A stretch of 55,205 nucleotides of DNA from Melioribacteraceae bacterium. Lineage in GTDB: Bacteria; Bacteroidota; Ignavibacteria; Ignavibacteriales; Melioribacteraceae. The stretch spans positions 1 to 55,205 of the forward strand of contig BQMY01000097.1 in NCBI GenBank assembly GCA_022181065.1, written 5' to 3'. Positions 1 to 39,330 of the stretch are shown here, piece by piece; position 1 is the stretch's first letter, and the number at the start of each line of letters is the position of its first letter. Made by a program: the position numbers and the translations under genes. A model generated the notes under the pieces. That model was not told the origin of the DNA, searched no databases, and worked only from the letters and a program-made list of their open reading frames with translations.

Positions 1-19
1 TCGAGTCCTACTCGTGGAG
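1..19 (+). tRNA. 3' end of a tRNA cut by the window edge
   Basis: The first bases read as the second half of a T-loop (TCGAGT), the 3' strand of a T-stem (CCTAC), a seven-base acceptor strand ending in A, and a G discriminator. CCA is not encoded. The rest of the gene would lie upstream of the window. A72 and G73 would suit tRNA-Gln, but too little is visible to name it. The same segment recurs at 378-396 and, with one change, at 755-773, where it is clearly only a fragment. This copy could therefore also be a fragment. Confidence 0.4.
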
Positions 20-26
20 CAACCAG

Positions 27-59
27 AACCCGGCTTGATTTTTTCTCTCCGGGTTTTTT
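27..59 (+). terminator. Rho-independent terminator after tRNA 3' end (unit 1)
   Basis: AACCCGG at 27-33 pairs with CCGGGTT at 49-55 around a 15-nt loop and runs into T6. It lies eight bases after the tRNA-like 3' end, so it would terminate that tRNA transcript. Confidence 0.75.
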
Positions 60-80
60 GTTTTTGAGGGAAAACAAAAA

Positions 81-338
81 ATGGAATACTCTCTTTATAT
101 ACTCCAATCCTTAAATCACAACAAGTTTTATGTTGGTATATCCAGCAATCCAGAGCGCCGGCTTGAATTTCATAACACAATAGAAAAAGGATTTACTTCG
201 AGATATAGACCATGGAGGATAGTTTTCGTAAAGAAATGCGATAGCAAATCAACTGCTCTGCAACTAGAGCGAAAAGTAAAATCATGGAAGAGCAAAAAGA
301 TGATTCAAAAACTTATCGATAAAGAAATTAGTTTATGA
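81..338 (+). CDS. Small GIY-YIG endonuclease-like protein, copy 1
   Basis: This 85-residue protein has the GIY-YIG core in its UPF0213/YhbQ-like form: YSLYIL at residues 3-8, then FYVGIS, with the expected Arg in ERRLEFHN, a RPWRIV segment and a basic C-terminus. The family ranges from structure-selective and homing nucleases to UvrC-type cleavage domains; stand-alone proteins of this size are poorly characterised. The ATG has GAGGG about ten bases upstream, inside the A-rich leader that closes each repeat. Its neighbours are a tRNA 3' fragment and terminator on the left and a perfect palindrome on the right. A second copy at 458-715 differs at the protein level only by K81N. A divergent homologue at 38796-39047 has the same kind of tRNA-repeat neighbourhood. 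Confidence 0.85.
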   Translation: MEYSLYILQSLNHNKFYVGISSNPERRLEFHNTIEKGFTSRYRPWRIVFVKKCDSKSTALQLERKVKSWKSKKMIQKLIDKEISL

Positions 339-351
339 CCATGTGGCTGTT

Positions 352-369
352 ATTCCGACCTGTCGGAAT
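352..369. repeat. Perfect 8-bp inverted repeat (unit 1)
   Basis: ATTCCGAC at 352-359 and GTCGGAAT at 362-369 are perfect inverted repeats separated by CT. It lies 13 bp after the GIY-YIG stop codon and 8 bp before the next tRNA fragment, so it marks the junction between gene and tRNA-derived sequence. The same palindrome is at 729-746. It could be a nuclease or recombinase recognition site, or a REP-type palindrome. Confidence 0.7.
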
Positions 370-403
370 GTAGGTCCTCGAGTCCTACTCGTGGAGCAAC
401 CAG

Positions 404-436
404 AACCCGGCTTGATTTTTTCTCTCCGGGTTTTTT
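404..436 (+). terminator. Rho-independent terminator (unit 2)
   Basis: This is an identical copy of the 27-59 hairpin and T-run, displaced by 377 bp. It may terminate the first GIY-YIG gene. Confidence 0.75.
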
Positions 437-457
437 GTTTTTGAGGGAAAACAAAAA

Positions 458-715
458 ATGGAATACTCTCTTTATATACTCCAATCCTTAAATCACAACA
501 AGTTTTATGTTGGTATATCCAGCAATCCAGAGCGCCGTCTTGAATTTCATAACACGATAGAAAAAGGATTTACTTCGAGATATAGACCATGGAGGATAGT
601 TTTCGTAAAGAAATGCGATAGCAAATCAACTGCTCTGCAACTAGAGCGAAAAGTAAAATCATGGAAGAGCAAAAAGATGATTCAAAAACTTATCGATAAC
701 GAAATTAGCTTATGA
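458..715 (+). CDS. Small GIY-YIG endonuclease-like protein, copy 2
   Basis: This is a tandem duplicate of the gene at 81-338, with the same 85-residue length and a single amino-acid change (N instead of K at residue 81). The few other nucleotide differences are silent, for example in the codon for the Arg preceding LEFHN. The GIY-YIG core, leader, terminator and trailing palindrome are all conserved. Such high identity means recent duplication or ongoing homogenisation. Both copies have intact reading frames, so neither is an obvious pseudogene. Confidence 0.85.
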   Translation: MEYSLYILQSLNHNKFYVGISSNPERRLEFHNTIEKGFTSRYRPWRIVFVKKCDSKSTALQLERKVKSWKSKKMIQKLIDNEISL

Positions 716-728
716 CCATGCGGCTGTT

Positions 729-746
729 ATTCCGACCTGTCGGAAT
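729..746. repeat. Perfect 8-bp inverted repeat (unit 2)
   Basis: This is an exact copy of the 352-369 palindrome after the second GIY-YIG gene. It again lies immediately before a tRNA 3' fragment. Confidence 0.7.
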
Positions 747-780
747 GTAGGTCCTCGAGTCCTACTCTTGGAGCAATCAG

Positions 781-813
781 AACCCGGCTTGATTTTTTCT
801 CTCCGGGTTTTTT
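781..813 (+). terminator. Rho-independent terminator (partial unit 3)
   Basis: Third copy of the AACCCGG/CCGGGTT hairpin with T-run. It closes the array; no GIY-YIG gene follows. Confidence 0.75.
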
Positions 814-835
814 GTTTTTGAGGGAAAACAAAAAA

Positions 836-1192: not shown

Positions 1193-4100
1193 TTATTTCA
1201 TCAGCATCATTTTTTTGGTGTCAACGAAATTACTTCCGTCTACTCCCAAAGCTGTGATTGAGTAGATATACATTCCACTTGACAGCTCACCCGCGTTGAA
1301 GTCAACTTTATGAAGACCTACACTGTAACTTCGGGATACTACGTCTTTTACCTTCTGTCCCAACATATTGTACAAGGTTACTGTTACCTTACTATCTACA
1401 GGTACAGCAAACTTGATCCTTGTACTCGGGTTAAACGGGTTTGGATAGTTCTGACCCAGACTGTATTCTGTTGGTACAAAATCTACCTCTACAGCGTCAC
1501 TGTAGCTTGATGTTCCATCAAAGTCAACCTGACGTAATCTGTAGTAGTATGTACCTGATACCGCATGATGATCTGTGAAGGTATAGCTCTGTTTTTCACT
1601 TGTGGTTCCGTTACCATCCATGTAGCCTACTTTTGTGAATGACTCTCCGTCTTCACTTCTTTCTACTTCAAATCCCTTGTTGTTGGTCTCTGTGGCTGTT
1701 TCCCATGCCAACTGTATTGTTTCACCCACCACATTAGCAGCGAATGAGGATAGCTCTACAGGGATTGGAGCGTTGTAGTCAACAATAAGTTTTAGTTCTG
1801 TAAGTGATGTATTTGTTACCACTACCTGACCACCACCTTCGTTTACTACTTCATTTACAAGTACTCCACCAAAAGGATCCTGTACTGTCATTGTTACTGT
1901 ACCCGGTATTTCAGGGATATCTACATCAAGAGTCATAGATGTTCCACCGTCACCAAGCTGATACTTGAGTGTGTAGGTAACCTGACCTGTATAGTTGTTA
2001 TCACCTGTACGGTAGTCAGCAGGAGAACCTGTTGTACCGTCAGGAAGTATCATACGAGCGTCATATACACCTGCAGGTGGAAGTGGGGGCAGTTCTGTTT
2101 CGCCAAGGTCACTATCGATACCATCTGTAGCAGCAGGATCGATACCTAGCATAAGTCCGTATGAACCTGCGGCACCATCGGCAGTAGCAACACTGATTGT
2201 GTATAGCGCGTCTGCGTTTGGTGATTCCATTTCAGTGTCGTTACCTTTTTTAGCTACAGGCATCATTACCATTTCACCATCGGCTGATGCTTTAACCCAG
2301 TAACCTTCACCAGGATATAGTTCATCCGCTATTGAGTAGCCATTGTCATATCCGTAGAATACCGAAGCAATAATTCCCGCGGGATTTGTTACTATTTCAT
2401 CCGCGTTAACCATTGTTTCAAATGGACCAACTATGTTCCATCCTTCGTTAAGCGCTATGTTTATATGATCAGGCATACCTGTCATCATGTGTGTTCCACC
2501 ATCGTCGAACTTCAACCAGTAACCGGCTCCCATCGCGAGTTCTTCCATTGTTGTATAGCCGTTATCAAATCCGTATGCCGGTGATACAGCGTCAGGGAAC
2601 AACACTGATACACCCATATCTGGAGCGTGTACCGGAACTGAAAGGATGTTCCAGCCCTGAGATATAGTCATCTCTACGTTCATCATTTCAGAGTAAACGA
2701 TAAGAAGTGATGTAATAGAGCTGTTTGTTACTTCGTACATATCGGTTGATTTCATATCAACGTTGACAATTGATCCGCCGAACGGATCCTGCAGATAGAA
2801 ACTACCTTCAGGAAGTACGGTGTTATCCCAGCTGATGGTTACAGGATATCCATCTGTGCCTGTCTGGAACTGAAGTGTCCATGTAACTTCATCTTGTCCG
2901 AGAGGACGAATATCTGCAAGTGATGCTATATTGCCTGGTAGTACAAAACGTGAATCGAATACACCTGCAGGAGGTACAGGAGGTAGTTCAAACTCACCAA
3001 GGTCACTATCTATTCCATCTGTCGCGTTCGCGTCGCAGCCAAATGACATATCAAGACCATTTTTCATTCCGCCAGCATCCATTACGTTTACATCAACGAT
3101 ATAACCTTCCGGTCCGCCTTGTCCAACTTGCATACTTACAGGAACAACGATCATCGGGTTATTCGGATCATTACTGGTGATTTCCATATCCATTGAATAC
3201 TGACCTTCTTCAAGACCATCACTATTCAATTCAAGGATAACAGCAACTTGCTGACCATTATACAGTGTACCACCCTGGTTGCCGATTGCGAGCCAATCTG
3301 GTTCGGCTGAAATTTGCAATGCTTTTTCAGCGGTAACATATGATGAATTGTACGATACCTGAAGTCCGTCATCTCCACCATTGTTTTCAATACCGATAGT
3401 TGCGGATGTAACATCAAGATCAACAGAGTTGTAATAAACCTGGATTTTACCATTTTTATTCAAGACATACTGGAAGGTGATGGCACCGGTGCCAAAATAT
3501 TTTTTCCAGTTGGTGAATTGAACAATAAATCTGTTAGCTTCAGCTTTGTAATATACTGTCCCTTCGTCACCATCCATATCATCCCAGAAGCCCGCGATCA
3601 TATTATTGGGAACGTCTGAGTTTGGTATATCATCATTTGAATATGTGTTTTCGTTAAAGTCGTTGAATGTAATAAAACCGTTACTGGAGAAATAGACTGA
3701 AGTCTGAACTTCACCGTAAAATTTGAAATCAAATCCCAAATCGTATGGACCGGCTTTACCTTCATCCAATGGATCGAAAGTACCTGTTGGCGCCCAGTCA
3801 GTAACAGCTGTACCGGTTGAGGAAATATCTTCCCAAACATACTCGGGACCGTTTGGCTCATCGCTGTCTATCCATTCATAGCCAAAAAGGTCAGGTCCGC
3901 CAAAACCTTTGAATGAACCACCTTTAACTTCAACAGGCGCGTCTTTGGTGCCTGCATCTGTTGCGAGGTTTTTATTCACGAGAACTAATCTTGCGCTTAC
4001 ATTTTCAGGGAAAGTATTGTTGGTAAGTTCAATTTCGTAATCGAGAGTTGAGTTTCCGGTTGAAATATTTGAAACAGTTACTGTTTCTTCCTGAGTATCG

Positions 4101-6154
4101 TTTTGAGGCATATTCACACTAACTGACGTTGGGTTAACATCAATCAATGGGGCGCCGTAAGTGACACCGTTTACCACGTTTGACATTTCGGAAGCGTTAT
4201 TCCAAACGTCCATTGCTTTTATTGCAAACCAGTATTCGGTACCCATTTCAAGCTCTTCAACGAGGAAGTCTTTTGCGACACCGGCTGAATCACTGTTGCC
4301 GCCGTAGATAATTGAAGGCGCGTTGTTAAAGTCATCTTCATTAACAATCTGAGTAGTTGAGTAACGGATATCGTAAGAAGTTACACCACCGATTGTTGAA
4401 TCGTAAGGAGCAGTCCAGAATAATTCAAGAGAATTTGATGTAGCTTCACCAACCGCAAGGTCTGTTACAGGTTCAGGAGGAGTATTATCGGGAGGAATCT
4501 GCTGAACTGTCGGAAGTGAAGGATCACCCATCAGGTTATACATTTCAAGGTATCTGAGAAGTGTTTGTCCCGAAGTAACAACACCGCCATAATAGTTGAC
4601 AAGACCAACTTTACCGATATCCATCATAGGAGTAATTCTGGTCATATCATCTTCGTACCATCCTCTTACAATTTCTTTTTCGAGGATATCGTCTTCATCC
4701 CAATATGAGTTTACAGAAGAACCATAAAAACCTGATGCGCCATTTTCTGTTCTCAACCAGGTTTCACCGAAACATTCACCTGTTTCGAACTGACCGGTAA
4801 CACAAGCAAAAGAGAATACAAAAGAATAAACGGTGTTATTCAAGGCTTCTACCTGATCCTGGGTAAGCTGAGGACCATCCGCCCAGTAAGTAACCGCGCC
4901 GTGTCCTGAATAAATCGCGAAAATCTGGTCTTCATTAAGGGTGTTTATCAAATCTTCTGTTGTTGCGTTGTATGTAACCTGATACAATTTTGTGTTTTCA
5001 TATCCTGCTGGAACAAAATAATTATCAATAACATAATTATGTGTTCCTTCTGAAATACTATAATTATCTACTGATGCCATAAAGCAATTTTGCTTTGTGA
5101 AAGTAGCGATATAGTTTTCCATATAAACGTTTTTGTTGATAGCGTTCGCAAGTTCAGTGGCATTAGTAACTGAAAAACGACCAATAAATAAATCAGCGAA
5201 ATAGTCATCACCTTCAAGCTGGGCATAGTTAAGGTCAGTTGTAGGAGAACCCGCGCCTGTACCTGTCCACGCCGGAACAACATTCACATCACCAACAAGG
5301 AGTACAAATTCTGGTCTTTCCAGAGCGTTATTGTACATATCAGCGATGTAAGTTTTTATTGCTGAATTTGAGGTACCACATTCGGTAGTAGTGACAACAG
5401 ATACATTATATCCTTTGCCTTCTTTGTGAGTTACAAATGATTCAAGACCGGCTTCAAATTCTGGAGCGGTAATAATCAAATAATTGATGCCCGCTTTTGA
5501 AGAACCTGCTTCGTAGTTAACAAATACTTTTTCGAAGTAGCTGTTATAGTTTTCTGAAAACTGACCATCATAATAAGGAGCGTCAGCGGTAATGTTGATT
5601 TCAGCGGAAGAAATTACTGAAAGTTCGTTAGCCGAAGGATTGTATGAAAAAGGATAGATAGTTACAGTAACACCCTTCACACCACCCATAACGAACGGTT
5701 CGGAAATTTCTACAAAGTTATGATTGGCAACGCCATCTGTATTGTAGTAACTTCTATTAATGGTAAACGGTCTGTCGGCAATCGGTTTATTTTTTTCCCA
5801 TGGAGCCTGAAATGGATAAACTTTAGCCGAAAGTCCTGTTTTAGCCAAATTTTTAGTTTTTACTTCAAATGAGGGAATATTATCATTTTTATCTAAAGCA
5901 AGATTAAATGAAATAAGTGGAAGCGCCGGAATACCTTCGTTATATGTAACACCATATCCTGGTACTTCTATTTTGACAAAGTTTTCTCCATCAACATTTA
6001 CATTTTTAAAGTCGTAGTCGGGGAGATTGAATTGCACTTTGTAACCATCGGTTACCGGGGTTAATTTTACACCATTTAGTTCGGCAGCGGAGAGGAACAA
6101 ACTGGGGATCAACACCAATGCCGCAAATAGTGTAAGCAGAAACTGTTTTTTCAT
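1193..6154 (-). CDS. T9SS-exported C25 (gingipain-like) cysteine peptidase, multidomain
   Basis: This is a 1653-residue secreted protein. Residues 1-23 are a signal peptide. A propeptide-like region is followed by a C25 peptidase domain with the catalytic His in SGHG (H418) and Cys in SFACVTGQF (C451). A fibronectin type III module lies at about 553-655. Next come beta-rich regions, two GWNI-containing repeats (about 1166 and 1240) and a duplicated block rich in DGIDSDLGE..LPP[VL]PPAGV. A last Ig/FnIII-like domain (about 1480-1555) precedes a type A sorting domain (about 1562-1653) with NYPNPFNPS and a terminal KKMMLMK. T9SS would move it across the outer membrane. AGGAG lies 8 bases before the ATG. 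It is much longer than classical gingipains because of the stacked C-terminal modules. The peptidase assignment is firm; its substrate is unknown. Confidence 0.9.
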   Translation of the reverse strand: MKKQFLLTLFAALVLIPSLFLSAAELNGVKLTPVTDGYKVQFNLPDYDFKNVNVDGENFVKIEVPGYGVTYNEGIPALPLISFNLALDKNDNIPSFEVKTKNLAKTGLSAKVYPFQAPWEKNKPIADRPFTINRSYYNTDGVANHNFVEISEPFVMGGVKGVTVTIYPFSYNPSANELSVISSAEINITADAPYYDGQFSENYNSYFEKVFVNYEAGSSKAGINYLIITAPEFEAGLESFVTHKEGKGYNVSVVTTTECGTSNSAIKTYIADMYNNALERPEFVLLVGDVNVVPAWTGTGAGSPTTDLNYAQLEGDDYFADLFIGRFSVTNATELANAINKNVYMENYIATFTKQNCFMASVDNYSISEGTHNYVIDNYFVPAGYENTKLYQVTYNATTEDLINTLNEDQIFAIYSGHGAVTYWADGPQLTQDQVEALNNTVYSFVFSFACVTGQFETGECFGETWLRTENGASGFYGSSVNSYWDEDDILEKEIVRGWYEDDMTRITPMMDIGKVGLVNYYGGVVTSGQTLLRYLEMYNLMGDPSLPTVQQIPPDNTPPEPVTDLAVGEATSNSLELFWTAPYDSTIGGVTSYDIRYSTTQIVNEDDFNNAPSIIYGGNSDSAGVAKDFLVEELEMGTEYWFAIKAMDVWNNASEMSNVVNGVTYGAPLIDVNPTSVSVNMPQNDTQEETVTVSNISTGNSTLDYEIELTNNTFPENVSARLVLVNKNLATDAGTKDAPVEVKGGSFKGFGGPDLFGYEWIDSDEPNGPEYVWEDISSTGTAVTDWAPTGTFDPLDEGKAGPYDLGFDFKFYGEVQTSVYFSSNGFITFNDFNENTYSNDDIPNSDVPNNMIAGFWDDMDGDEGTVYYKAEANRFIVQFTNWKKYFGTGAITFQYVLNKNGKIQVYYNSVDLDVTSATIGIENNGGDDGLQVSYNSSYVTAEKALQISAEPDWLAIGNQGGTLYNGQQVAVILELNSDGLEEGQYSMDMEITSNDPNNPMIVVPVSMQVGQGGPEGYIVDVNVMDAGGMKNGLDMSFGCDANATDGIDSDLGEFELPPVPPAGVFDSRFVLPGNIASLADIRPLGQDEVTWTLQFQTGTDGYPVTISWDNTVLPEGSFYLQDPFGGSIVNVDMKSTDMYEVTNSSITSLLIVYSEMMNVEMTISQGWNILSVPVHAPDMGVSVLFPDAVSPAYGFDNGYTTMEELAMGAGYWLKFDDGGTHMMTGMPDHINIALNEGWNIVGPFETMVNADEIVTNPAGIIASVFYGYDNGYSIADELYPGEGYWVKASADGEMVMMPVAKKGNDTEMESPNADALYTISVATADGAAGSYGLMLGIDPAATDGIDSDLGETELPPLPPAGVYDARMILPDGTTGSPADYRTGDNNYTGQVTYTLKYQLGDGGTSMTLDVDIPEIPGTVTMTVQDPFGGVLVNEVVNEGGGQVVVTNTSLTELKLIVDYNAPIPVELSSFAANVVGETIQLAWETATETNNKGFEVERSEDGESFTKVGYMDGNGTTSEKQSYTFTDHHAVSGTYYYRLRQVDFDGTSSYSDAVEVDFVPTEYSLGQNYPNPFNPSTRIKFAVPVDSKVTVTLYNMLGQKVKDVVSRSYSVGLHKVDFNAGELSSGMYIYSITALGVDGSNFVDTKKMMLMK

Positions 6155-7870: not shown

Positions 7871-8779
7871 AAAATCGAAATACCATCGAACCACAACTAT
7901 CAGGAGCAGAATCACTCCTTCAACCCGTGAGACCTTCCAGCCGGTTCGCATAAAGAATACAACTACGAATAACGCCCCGGTAAGCAGAGTGATGCTTCCA
8001 AATGCTGATGGAATGATTGTGAGAGGTTTAATCAATGATGCAACTCCAAGAACACCGAGGAGATTAAAAATGTCGCTACCAATTAAATTTCCGGCCGACA
8101 TTCCGTGACGACCTTTGATAACCGCAACGAGTGAAGTAGCCATTTCCGGCGCTGATGTTCCCGCGGCTACAATTGTAACTCCGATAGCCCATTCGCTAAC
8201 ACCAAGAATTCGCGCAATTTCAGAGGCCGAATCAACAAAATAATGACCGCTTACCACAATAATTGCAGTTCCCGCGATAAATTGAAAGGAATGGTACCAC
8301 TTGAAATCGCCATCATCGTGGAATTCCGCTTCGGGATCTTTGTGGACAAAAAGATAGGCAAGGTAAGCTACGAGTAAAAACAGAAATATCGCACCTTCAA
8401 ACTGCGAAAGAGTCAGGTCGTACAAAAAAATGAAAAGAAGAATACTAGTTCCAATTAATACAGTTCCATCCCTGTACACCATCTTTTTTGTTGATTTCAC
8501 TGTGCCAACTACAGCTACAAGTCCGAGGATAAAAAAGAGATTGAAGATATTTGATCCAACTACATTACCAACAGAAATGTCAGATTTGTCTGCCAATGCT
8601 GCCGAGACAGTCACCGCAAACTCGGGAGCCGAGGTAGCAAACGCAATAACTGTCAAGCCTATAACAAGATCGGACATTCCAAGTTTTTTCGCGATACGCG
8701 AAGCACTGAGCACTATAATATCCGCGCCTTTCCAAAGACCTATCAAGCAGACAACAAGAATTAATAATGGGAGGAGCAA
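7862..8779 (-). CDS. Calcium/sodium antiporter of the CaCA family (YrbG-like)
   Basis: This 305-residue inner-membrane protein has the two inverted alpha repeats that define CaCA exchangers: GLTVIAFATSAPEFAVT in the first half and GVTIVAAGTSAPEMATS in the second. Each contains the ion-binding Glu after SAP, and conserved G[SN][ND]IFNL segments follow. About ten membrane helices are expected. The length matches bacterial YrbG. The only available start is TTG (8777-8779), because an in-frame stop lies 15-18 bp upstream; no strong ribosome site is seen. It is convergent with, and overlaps by 9 bp, the aminotransferase gene. It likely exchanges Na+ for Ca2+. Confidence 0.9.
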   Translation of the reverse strand: MLLPLLILVVCLIGLWKGADIIVLSASRIAKKLGMSDLVIGLTVIAFATSAPEFAVTVSAALADKSDISVGNVVGSNIFNLFFILGLVAVVGTVKSTKKMVYRDGTVLIGTSILLFIFLYDLTLSQFEGAIFLFLLVAYLAYLFVHKDPEAEFHDDGDFKWYHSFQFIAGTAIIVVSGHYFVDSASEIARILGVSEWAIGVTIVAAGTSAPEMATSLVAVIKGRHGMSAGNLIGSDIFNLLGVLGVASLIKPLTIIPSAFGSITLLTGALFVVVFFMRTGWKVSRVEGVILLLIVVVRWYFDFSG

Positions 8780-38067: not shown

Positions 38068-38155
38068 GGAGGGGTGGCAGAGCTGGTTGAATGCGGCGGT
38101 CTTGAAAACCGTTGTGGGTTTGCGCTCACCGGGGGTTCGAATCCCTCCCCCTCCG
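38068..38155 (+). tRNA. tRNA-Ser (anticodon TGA)
   Basis: This 88-nt tRNA is complete. The acceptor GGAGGGG pairs with CCCCTCC and the discriminator is G. The anticodon loop is CTTGAAA with anticodon TGA at 38103-38105. The long variable arm (TGTGGGTTTGCGCTCAC) is typical of class II tRNAs, and the T-loop is TTCGAAT. CCA is not encoded. A terminator follows at 38163. Five partial and altered copies follow downstream; this is the only intact one. Confidence 0.95.
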
Positions 38156-38162
38156 CAAGTTG

Positions 38163-38198
38163 AAAAAGTCTTTTCGGTATTTCCGGAAAGACTTTTTT
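38163..38198 (+). terminator. Terminator after tRNA-Ser
   Basis: AGTCTTTTCGG pairs (one mismatch) with CCGGAAAGACT around TATTT, with an A-run before and T6 after. It is copied with each downstream repeat at 38366-38401, 38569-38604 and 39188-39223. Confidence 0.85.
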
Positions 38199-38245
38199 CG
38201 TTTAAACACTTCTCATCAAAGACAAGTTTGAATGCGGCAGTCTTG

Positions 38246-38272
38246 CCACCGCTTTGCGGGGTCCCTTCGGGA
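38246..38272 (+). repeat. Double-hairpin mini-element in the anticodon loop (unit A)
   Basis: This 27-nt insert reads CACCGC, loop TTT, GCGGG, G, TCCC, loop TTC, GGGA. It splits the anticodon TG^A. Equivalent inserts lie in units B, C (38652-38678, mutated), D and E. It is homologous to the T-loop insert 38308-38337. Confidence 0.85.
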
Positions 38273-38307
38273 AAAACCGTTGTGGGTTTGCGCTCACCGG
38301 GGGTTCG

Positions 38308-38337
38308 TCACCGCACAGCGGGATCCCAATAATGGGA
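38308..38337 (+). repeat. Double-hairpin mini-element in the T-loop (unit A)
   Basis: This 30-nt insert reads CACCGC, loop ACA, GCGGG, A, TCCC, loop AATAAT, GGGA, placed between TTCG and AAT of the T-loop. Stems match those of the anticodon-loop insert exactly while both loops differ. Copies also occur in units B and D, the latter with one G-to-A change. Confidence 0.85.
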
Positions 38338-38760
38338 AATCCATTTTCTCCCCCTCCGCAAGTTGAAAAAGTCTTTTCGGTATTTCCGGAAAGACTTTTT
38401 TCGTTTAAACACTTCTCATCAAAGACAAGTTTGAATGCGGCGGTCTTGCCACCGCTTTGCGGGGTCCCTTCGGGAAAAACCGTTGTGGGTTTGCGCTCAC
38501 CGGGGGTTCGTCACCGCACAGCGGGATCCCAATAATGGGAAATCCATTTTCTCCCCCTCCGCAAGTTGAAAAAGTCTTTTCGGTATTTCCGGAAAGACTT
38601 TTTTCGTTTAAATACTTCTCATCAAAGACAAGTTTGAATGCGGCGGTCTTGCCACCGCTTCGCGGGGTTCTTTCGGGAAAAACCGTTTGAGTTGCATCCC
38701 CGTTTGCGGAATATCCGTTCTACTCCTCCGCGATATTCTTTTGATTACAACAAAATCTTG

Positions 38761-38768
38761 TATATTTC
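38761..38768 (+). promoter_or_regulatory. Possible -7 box of the second GIY-YIG gene
   Basis: TATATTTC resembles the TAnnTTTG box and ends 28 bp before the ATG, the same spacing as at 19203 and 28870. TTTTG lies 17 bp upstream as a possible -33 element. The gene may thus have its own promoter independent of tRNA-Ser. Confidence 0.35.
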
Positions 38769-38795
38769 GGCTTACACATTTAAGTTCGAAAGTAT

Positions 38796-39047
38796 ATGAA
38801 TTACACTGTCTATATTCTTAAAAGTGAATTAAACGGACGTCATTATGTTGGTCACACAGGAGATATTGATGCCAGACTGAAGGCACATAATTCCGGTAAG
38901 GTTCGCTCCACAAAAGCATACAGAACTTGGAAAATAATTTATAAAGAGGAATATCCCGACAAACAATCCGCATACAAAAGGGAAATGGAAATTAAAGGTT
39001 ACAAAGGTGGGGAGAGCTTTAAACTATTAATTGATTTACAAGCGTGA
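38796..39047 (+). CDS. Small GIY-YIG endonuclease-like protein in the tRNA-Ser array
   Basis: This 83-residue protein opens MNYTVYILKS, then HYVGHT, ARLKAHNSG, a YRTWKIIY segment and a Lys-rich end. It has the same GIY-YIG/UPF0213 core as the proteins at 81 and 458 but is clearly divergent from them (the motif is shared, most other positions differ). It lies between the degenerate unit C and unit D; its stop codon is 2 bp before unit D. No strong Shine-Dalgarno is visible. The recurrence of this family inside tRNA-fragment arrays of a different tRNA suggests a functional link rather than chance. Confidence 0.85.
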   Translation: MNYTVYILKSELNGRHYVGHTGDIDARLKAHNSGKVRSTKAYRTWKIIYKEEYPDKQSAYKREMEIKGYKGGESFKLLIDLQA

Positions 39048-39049
39048 TG

Positions 39050-39330
39050 TTGAATGCGGCGGTCTTGCCACCGCTTTGCGGGGTCCCTTCGGGAAAAACC
39101 GTTGTGGGTTTGCGCTCACCGGGGGTTCGTCACCGCACAGCGAGATCCCAATAATGGGAAATCCATTTTCTCCCCCTCCGCAAGTTGAAAAAGTCTTTTC
39201 GGTATTTCCGGAAAGACTTTTTTCGTTTAAACACTTCTCATCAAAGACAAGTTTGAATGCGGCGGTCTTGCCACCGCTTTGCGGGGTCCCTTCGGGAAAA
39301 ACCGTTGTGGGTTTGCGCTCACCGGGGGTT
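39050..39330 (+). repeat. tRNA-Ser-derived repeats, units D and E
   Basis: Unit D (39050-39252) is another 203-bp copy with both mini-elements and the terminator. Unit E (39253-39330) breaks off in the T-arm at GGGGGTT, the T-loop position where insertions occur in the other copies. The GIY-YIG gene therefore has tRNA-derived repeats on both sides. Confidence 0.9.

Follow-up and report, generated by a model that had tools for sequence, protein, structure and literature searches.

Short paired hairpins with a linked small gene for a nuclease-like RAYT transposase of the Y1 type are characteristic of REP/BIME palindromes. The elements described here resemble them in combining short paired hairpins with a linked small nuclease-like gene, but show by eye no GTAG-type foot, are linked to a GIY-YIG gene and lie mostly in tRNA loops. 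Islands that target tRNA genes, for their part, usually leave behind a tRNA gene that has been split and rebuilt, together with 3' copies. Double-hairpin elements of fungal mitochondria were reportedly described by Paquin in 2000. According to the available portions of two reports, these elements and the yeast GC clusters consist, like ours, of two adjacent small hairpins whose structure is kept and whose loops vary, and mobility has been proposed for the fungal elements; theirs are mitochondrial and dispersed, whereas ours are bacterial, mostly placed in tRNA loops and often adjacent to a nuclease gene (PMC5910586, PMC4478555).

The closest described nuclease system is SegB, a free-standing GIY-YIG homing endonuclease of T-even phages, studied in T6 (PMC13096335, PMC2988022, both available in part). 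The accessible text of the former states that SegB cuts inside tRNA genes and drives tandem amplification, and gives a mapped motif, RAWTSGAAC, present in 23 of 83 cut sites (PMC13096335). SegB therefore resembles what we propose here in having a GIY-YIG gene within a tRNA cluster, in cutting inside tRNA genes and in the tandem amplification of a tRNA segment; it differs in that the accessible portions of both papers mention neither the splitting of tRNA genes with rebuilding nor hairpin inserts. The closest solved structures are UPF0213 and SLX1, which share the same catalytic domain, the relation being one of sequence; SLX1 bears the name of a structure-specific endonuclease.

Our analysis concerns a window of 55,205 nucleotides, the whole stretch of DNA studied, from a Melioribacteraceae bacterium (contig BQMY01000097.1). 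We propose, with a probability of roughly 45%, that an array in this window consists of displaced tRNA pieces left by a SegB-like GIY-YIG cassette in tRNA genes, and that small double-hairpin inserts break the target loops of these pieces, or stumps.

Organization of the window arrays

The array lies 3' of an intact tRNA-Ser(TGA) gene and comprises five units, of which three are complete (203 bp), one is degenerate and one is truncated (Table 1). In each complete unit the tRNA runs from its D-loop (TTGAATGCGGC) through its 3' end and is followed by the terminator and a spacer; three segments are added to it, namely an insert of 27 nt in the anticodon loop, one of 30 nt in the T-loop and the five bases ATTTT in the T-stem. 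With these parts located, the unit arithmetic of the preliminary description proved correct (27 + 30 + 5 = 62 = 203 - 141), and its central observation, that the tRNA-Ser copies bear homologous double-hairpin inserts in both loops, was confirmed with the coordinates recovered. The array totals five anticodon-loop and three T-loop inserts. Their stems had been called exact and their loops different; this holds for all but the copy at 39130, which has one stem change, and the copy at 38652, which has three changes, two of them in a stem. The terminator-like hairpin recurs in all complete units (38366-38401, 38569-38604 and 39188-39223). The array belongs to the 3' arrangement, the junction falling in the D-loop, and its units retain the D-loop core TTGAA. 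None of the units was accepted as a cloverleaf by the tRNA finders, and the intact gene was the only call.

Table 1. Coordinates of the array features in the 55,205-nt window
Feature	Position	Strand	Remarks
Second array, tRNA 3' pieces with GIY-YIG genes 81-338 and 458-715	1..835	+	
tRNA-Ser(TGA), intact	38068..38156	+	ARAGORN; Rfam RF00005, 57.6 bits
Terminator-like hairpin with T run	38163..38198	+	
Unit 1: tRNA D-loop to 3' end, both inserts, terminator, spacer	38228..38430	+	
Anticodon-loop double-hairpin insert, 27 nt	38246..38272	+	
Further anticodon-loop inserts	38449-38475, 38652-38678, 39068-39094, 39271-39297	+	
T-loop double-hairpin insert, 30 nt	38308..38337	+	
Further T-loop inserts	38511-38540, 39130-39159	+	
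Unit 2	38431..38633	+	99% identity to unit 1
Unit 3, degenerate; anticodon-loop insert retained, T-arm decayed	38634..38711	+	
GIY-YIG nuclease gene, open, 83 aa	38796..39047	+	Pfam PF01541, E 1.4e-15, 57.8 bits
Unit 4, complete	39050..39252	+	99% identity to unit 1
Unit 5, truncated inside T-arm	39253..39330	+	

The preliminary description did not contain the GIY-YIG gene inside this array, which is located between the degenerate unit and unit 4, the latter starting 3 nt past its stop codon. A second array at the beginning of the contig has two GIY-YIG genes in tandem among tRNA-Asn-like pieces (by eye, in comparison with locus L318) whose anticodon arm forms a perfect hairpin; since the contig starts within this array, the intact tRNA is out of view. 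Between the two arrays, positions 1193-6154 encode a large peptidase of the C25 family, which carries a Por secretion tail and is ordinary for the phylum.

The start of the contig inside a repeat would be compatible with an assembly artefact, and tRNA pseudogenes may also decay at random. Either origin can practically be dismissed, given that the same architecture occurs in many genomes, including eleven units within one long contig of genome G353, and in the cultured strains Litoribacter ruber and Tangfeifania diversioriginum, and that the stems of the inserts show compensatory changes.

A small nuclease gene and the halves of split tRNA genes

The window nucleases, of 83-85 aa, have a single Pfam domain, with no separate DNA-binding domain. 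The catalytic GIY-YIG domain is present with its conserved Y/G, R and E residues, and Y6, Y17, G19, R27 and E63 are invariant in an alignment of seven proteins (A1). The phage protein SegB is larger than nucleases of this type. Since the window protein is an 83-aa catalytic domain only, the specificity of SegB cannot be assumed for it. A phage origin was rejected on a search of viral contigs, in which the window nuclease had no relative and the double hairpin matched two records.

The source genome has 15 GIY-YIG matches, several of them beside tRNA pieces, and such genes occur in 72 of 79 genomes of the family (E 1e-10). Of 30 loci, each the best protein match in its genome, 25 had an intact same-strand tRNA within 500 bp, with a bias toward tRNA-linked loci because the nuclease profile was built from tRNA-linked members. 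Genomes with inserts contain more nuclease genes than the others (median 6 in 30 genomes versus 3 in 49, p 5e-6), in a comparison that ignores kinship and genome quality and in which the source genome was added by hand to the insert group. The seven genomes lacking the nuclease contain no insert (Fisher 0.04 for both insert types together; 0.09 and 0.59, not significant, for the types apart).

Other GIY-YIG genes of the source genome have different surroundings. At L023 / L073 (contig C76, about position 7992), such a gene lies between direct repeats of a 3' end that is tRNA-Met-like by eye, with the hairpin TCCGCC..GGCGGA in the T-loop of the repeat and an adjoining reading frame that is HNH-like by eye; no intact tRNA was called in this 4.5-kb stretch. 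At L014, L018 and L025 (contigs C86 and C126), non-tRNA GIY-YIG genes, once in three tandem copies, are flanked by intergenic palindromes that seemingly have small hairpins in their own loops.

In the relatives, the intact tRNA, the nuclease gene and the stump are linked on one strand in two mirror arrangements: either the intact tRNA is followed by the nuclease gene and a 3' stump with a broken T-loop, or a 5' stump with a broken D-loop is followed by the nuclease gene and the intact tRNA. Among the 3' stumps at nuclease loci with a called tRNA, the T-loop is interrupted in 16 of 17, two of the 17 being window units and the copies of L317 and L292, loci with no tRNA call, falling outside the count. 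The exception is the tRNA-Asn stump of L318, with the T-loop TTCGAGT. Seven of the 16 interruptions belong to the main type of double hairpin defined below, and nine are other inserts, mostly hairpins by eye. At L317 (genome G073, positions 1-800), a GIY-YIG gene lies among four tRNA-Asn-like 3' copies that stand in tandem and contain a hairpin in their anticodon arm; three of the four have an intact T-loop and are interrupted in the anticodon arm only; one tRNA-Ser copy at L292 likewise has an intact T-loop and is interrupted only in the anticodon arm or loop.

The comparison of occupied and empty sites covers one 5' and one 3' case, at two loci of another genus of the family, neither being the window locus, for which no empty counterpart turned up. 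At a tRNA-Ser locus, G028 has the cassette and G027 lacks it, the two genomes being syntenic on either side, and their alignment revealed that the host leader continues into the stump, while a new complete 5' half stands behind the nuclease gene. A tRNA-Glu locus, occupied in G026 and G029 and empty in G028 and G021, shares a downstream flank of about 1.4 kb and a leader of about 50 bp, and at the occupied sites the host terminator now follows the stump. As the host leader or terminator is now joined to the stump, the stump is the displaced half of the host and the tRNA was rebuilt by the newcomer. In these relatives, therefore, a nuclease gene entered a tRNA gene, a new half rebuilt the tRNA and the original half was left as the stump, which adds to the preliminary description the identity of such copies as displaced halves of a split tRNA gene. 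G022 was left out of the empty tRNA-Glu sites, having no cassette downstream but tRNA-like pieces upstream by eye. At the tRNA-Ser locus of G025 two stumps are stacked, and at the tRNA-Glu locus of G023 a stump with a double hairpin is found with no nuclease gene there, perhaps the scar of a lost cassette. By analogy with these relatives, the window array would have arisen by the same route, and the tRNA-Ser(TGA) in front of it would be a rebuilt functional copy.

Split and rebuilt tRNA genes with 3' copies also match the usual trace of islands, and the array could in principle consist of ordinary attachment-site remnants of tRNA-targeting integrase islands with REP-like debris. This origin is very improbable, as the segments inserted at both empty-site loci measure about 300 bp with the nuclease gene alone inside, both 5' and 3' halves are displaced, and the 12 neighbouring window proteins scanned, besides the two nucleases, include no integrase.

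Structure and distribution of the double hairpins

Folded singly as DNA, the window inserts have no unusual stability (z -0.5 to -1.25); single-sequence folding, not being significant, was dropped as structural proof, and the structure was therefore tested on relatives. Over 82 distinct sequences, the two-hairpin model pairs in 98.8% of the cells, and changes on both sides of a pair occur in 99 cells versus 27 in shuffles. The covariation is 0.419 versus 0.147 in shuffled alignments, a score reached by none of 500 shuffles, and sliding the partners destroys the signal. Two measures confined to pair count or pair type do not exceed the shuffled values (reached in 264 and 352 of 500 shuffles), and because the search pattern dictates the two innermost pairs in either stem, these pairs are uninformative. 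Two adjacent hairpins are kept by compensatory change among the relatives, and the structure of the window inserts rests on this covariation. A single long palindrome was rejected as a model: it is paired in 75.3% of the cells with a covariation of 0.112, and complementarity between the hairpin loops (16 of 110, shuffled mean 21) is not beyond chance.

The main type has the outline GGTTC-TCCC-N3-GGGA-NTCC-N3-GGAN-GAATCC and is placed in the T-loop. A pattern including the tRNA flanks found it at 24 places in 16 of the 79 family genomes, the match at L086 being no double hairpin, and in 26 of 392 genomes of the phylum (control 0); with the flanks dropped and the outer stem positions free, 24 of the 79 family genomes had matches (control pattern 1). 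A scan of the genomes of about 85,000 species gave at least 119 stretches with the main type. Of the 80 loci among these that have titles, all but four come from Bacteroidota, Calditrichota or Marinimicrobia, and the four exceptions are not located in tRNA copies.

The T-loop of a tRNA copy accounts for 110 of 141 distinct main-type places, or for 91 of 122 when 19 places, all tRNA-like, from loci fetched by the tRNA-flank pattern are excluded. By best match, the 110 copies derive from tRNA-Ser (44), Glu (15), Val (13), Pro (12), Arg (10) and Cys (7), with nine places across six further kinds and none from Leu. An intact gene for the same tRNA is present in the fetched stretch for 78 of the 110, on the same strand in 77 and upstream in 72. 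A GIY-YIG gene was found within 600 bp at 35 of the 110 tRNA-loop places, always on the same strand, compared with two of the 31 other places; at the remaining 75 tRNA-loop places none was found within that distance.

Stump, nuclease gene and tRNA share one strand within a few hundred bases, and the stem halves are well kept, the 15 nt 3' of the T-loop being exact in 47 of 78 stumps. Both features might suggest selection at the RNA level, with the stump transcribed together with the intact tRNA and the hairpins blocking mispairing or processing as a tRNA. We consider this improbable: hairpins in the loops leave the stem strands free to mispair, and plain deletion would serve better, yet the stumps persist.

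The anticodon loop and the D-loop are also occupied, according to loop assignments based on an alignment that left out 34 of the 110 tRNA-loop places, which could not be aligned. Double hairpins in the anticodon loop were found in tRNA-Ser copies only (L067, L099, L153, L162 and L229), while in copies of other tRNAs the anticodon arm often bears a single hairpin (L088, Glu; L139, Pro; L178, Val). Single cases of D-loop double hairpins in tRNA-Ser copies are L143 and L172.

A second type, CATCGC-N-GCGAR-RTYCC-N-GGRA, occurs in 12 of the 79 family genomes (control 0), and the window inserts (YCACCGC-N3-GCGGG-RTCCC-N-GGGA) belong to it by eye. At all 19 of its distinct places, the insert comes after the GGYTG of the D-loop in a 5' piece of tRNA-Ser; 17 of the 19 are upstream of an intact tRNA-Ser and 12 have a nuclease gene 31-186 bases downstream, and among the 18 stumps whose ends were counted, 16 end in the anticodon arm.

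Related tandem arrangements were observed elsewhere. In G353 (L266, 1360-2690), the eleven units, of about 112 bp each, stand in tandem behind an intact tRNA-Thr, every unit comprising the T-arm, a double hairpin, the tRNA-Thr 3' end and a terminator. In G045 (L063, 700-1200), tandem tRNA-Ser 5' copies end exactly at the T-loop TTC, and one of them is called as a tRNA gene by ARAGORN, which makes it a trap for annotation.

The 31 main-type places not classed as tRNA include five borderline cases and four, L165, L192, L196 and L197, with broken, chance-like stems. Eight of the 31 sit by eye between C-rich-TTC and GAA-G-rich arms (L134, L146, L161, L173, L177, L185, L210 and L218); five of the six titled records among them are from Balneolaceae or Rhodohalobacter. 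In genome G016, eight dispersed intergenic palindromes, with stems of at least 7 of 9 pairs by eye, have window-type inserts in their loops (L367, L371, L373, L375, L377, L379, L380 and L381); the stems of the palindromes vary and the double hairpin is near-identical, and the fetched stretches contain no tRNA and no nuclease gene.

These palindromes and the 31 of 141 non-tRNA places keep alive another reading, in which the double hairpin is a tiny mobile element that lands in hairpin loops, tRNA stumps merely tolerate it and the nuclease is at most its carrier or mobiliser. The eight places between the C-rich and G-rich arms, the covarying stems with two hairpin loops that vary independently of each other, and the stumps with an intact T-loop all fit such an element. 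So does the L162 stump, in which, as in the window, the stems of the anticodon-loop insert are identical to those of the T-loop insert whereas the hairpin loops are not; the proposal in the preliminary description that two loops of one tRNA copy were invaded is thereby borne out by an independent repetition of the pattern. Its wider proposal of a mini-element family entering loops gains from the independent T-loop, D-loop and anticodon-loop cases, but finds no dispersal in the source genome (4.9 Mb), where the six matches of the strict double-hairpin pattern all lie in the window array (reversed-pattern control 0); a plain dispersed REP is ruled out there. Besides this confinement, the strict D-loop placement of the second type in tRNA-Ser and the opening of stumps by several kinds of hairpin rather than one argue against a mobile element, and T-loop interruption in nearly all counted stumps at nuclease loci is hardly expected of a rare one. 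We regard it as a strong alternative, if on balance a less probable one than the cassette.

Presumed target loops and the possible origin of the inserts

The reverse complement of the SegB motif, GTTCSAWTY, corresponds to the T-loop of tRNAs: the best score falls there in 120 of 121 tRNAs and is perfect in 83. The main text of PMC13096335 contains neither "T-loop" nor "T-arm", and this link was made in the present analysis. The main-type double hairpin sits in the middle of the motif. It is this coincidence of motif, T-loop and double hairpin that led us to propose SegB-like cassettes with broken target loops. The shorter core T[CGT]GAA occurs in 29 of 33 tRNA-Ser anticodon loops but in 0 of 88 from other tRNAs, which fits the restriction of anticodon double hairpins to tRNA-Ser; for the full nine-base motif, the tRNA-Ser anticodon loops are no outliers (4-8 of 9, others 4-7). 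The entry into loops described earlier is borne out by the T-loop counts of the main type, but in tRNA-Ser the choice of loops may be explained just as well by a local sequence common to them, TTS|(G)AA, as by their structure, and both site rules fit these data alike. The D-loop insert of an Arg(CCT) copy does not fit the sequence rule.

In the cassette reading that we prefer, the cassette would comprise the nuclease gene and a fresh copy of one tRNA half. On its entry, the fresh half would rebuild the tRNA and the original half of the host would be displaced as a stump, and repeated entry or tandem amplification would yield arrays. In most stumps, the loops with the presumed target core, namely the T-loop and, in tRNA-Ser, the D-loop and the anticodon loop, all of the form TTS|(G)AA, would be opened by double hairpins, which would prevent renewed cutting. 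Stumps with no nuclease gene would be scars of lost cassettes. The position of the inserts and their two-hairpin structure are observed in the relatives; that this nuclease cuts tRNA loops and that the inserts block cutting we infer, as we do the way in which the inserts are made.

The interrupted T-loops, the uniform D-loop placement of the second type and the excess of nuclease genes in genomes with inserts all support the cassette reading. Against it, the rebuilt tRNA keeps every presumed target, so that protection of the stump alone cannot explain the survival of the host. The intact T-loops in some stumps (L317, L292 and L318), the single hairpins in other anticodon arms, the retention of the D-loop core in the window units, the 75 tRNA-loop places with no nuclease gene found within 600 bp, the 31 main-type places not classed as tRNA and the inserts in the G016 palindromes also count against it. 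A combined scheme, in which Bacteroidota double-hairpin mini-elements insert into the loops of folded DNA, whether the D, anticodon and T loops of tRNA genes or those of palindromes, and are moved or selected by GIY-YIG nucleases of about 80 aa that read folded shape or the loop core instead of an extended sequence, appears rather unlikely to us.

In listings and abstract beginnings of the open-licence literature, neither double hairpins within tRNA copies of bacteria nor bacterial GIY-YIG cassettes splitting and rebuilding tRNA genes turned up, and no role for such small GIY-YIG genes in bacteria was encountered. The cassette would represent a previously unreported form of free-standing homing endonuclease, and the inserts could be a new kind of element, if they are mobile or guided by structure.

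To conclude, related double hairpins occur in the T-, D- and anticodon loops of tRNA pieces in many Bacteroidota, and the window array is one case among them. In these leftover tRNA pieces, the inserts indicate mobile or protective DNA of a kind not known before. The empty sites display a minimal selfish cassette that splits and repairs an essential gene in one act, and tRNA copies such as those of L063 can mislead tRNA annotation. If the view of a loop-reading mini-element is true, a structure-guided insertion system undescribed so far would be at work. The inserts are a clean, countable trace either of the presumed target of the nuclease or of a loop-directed insertion process, and the long-standing question of the origin and movement of double-hairpin elements is therefore testable in cultured bacteria.
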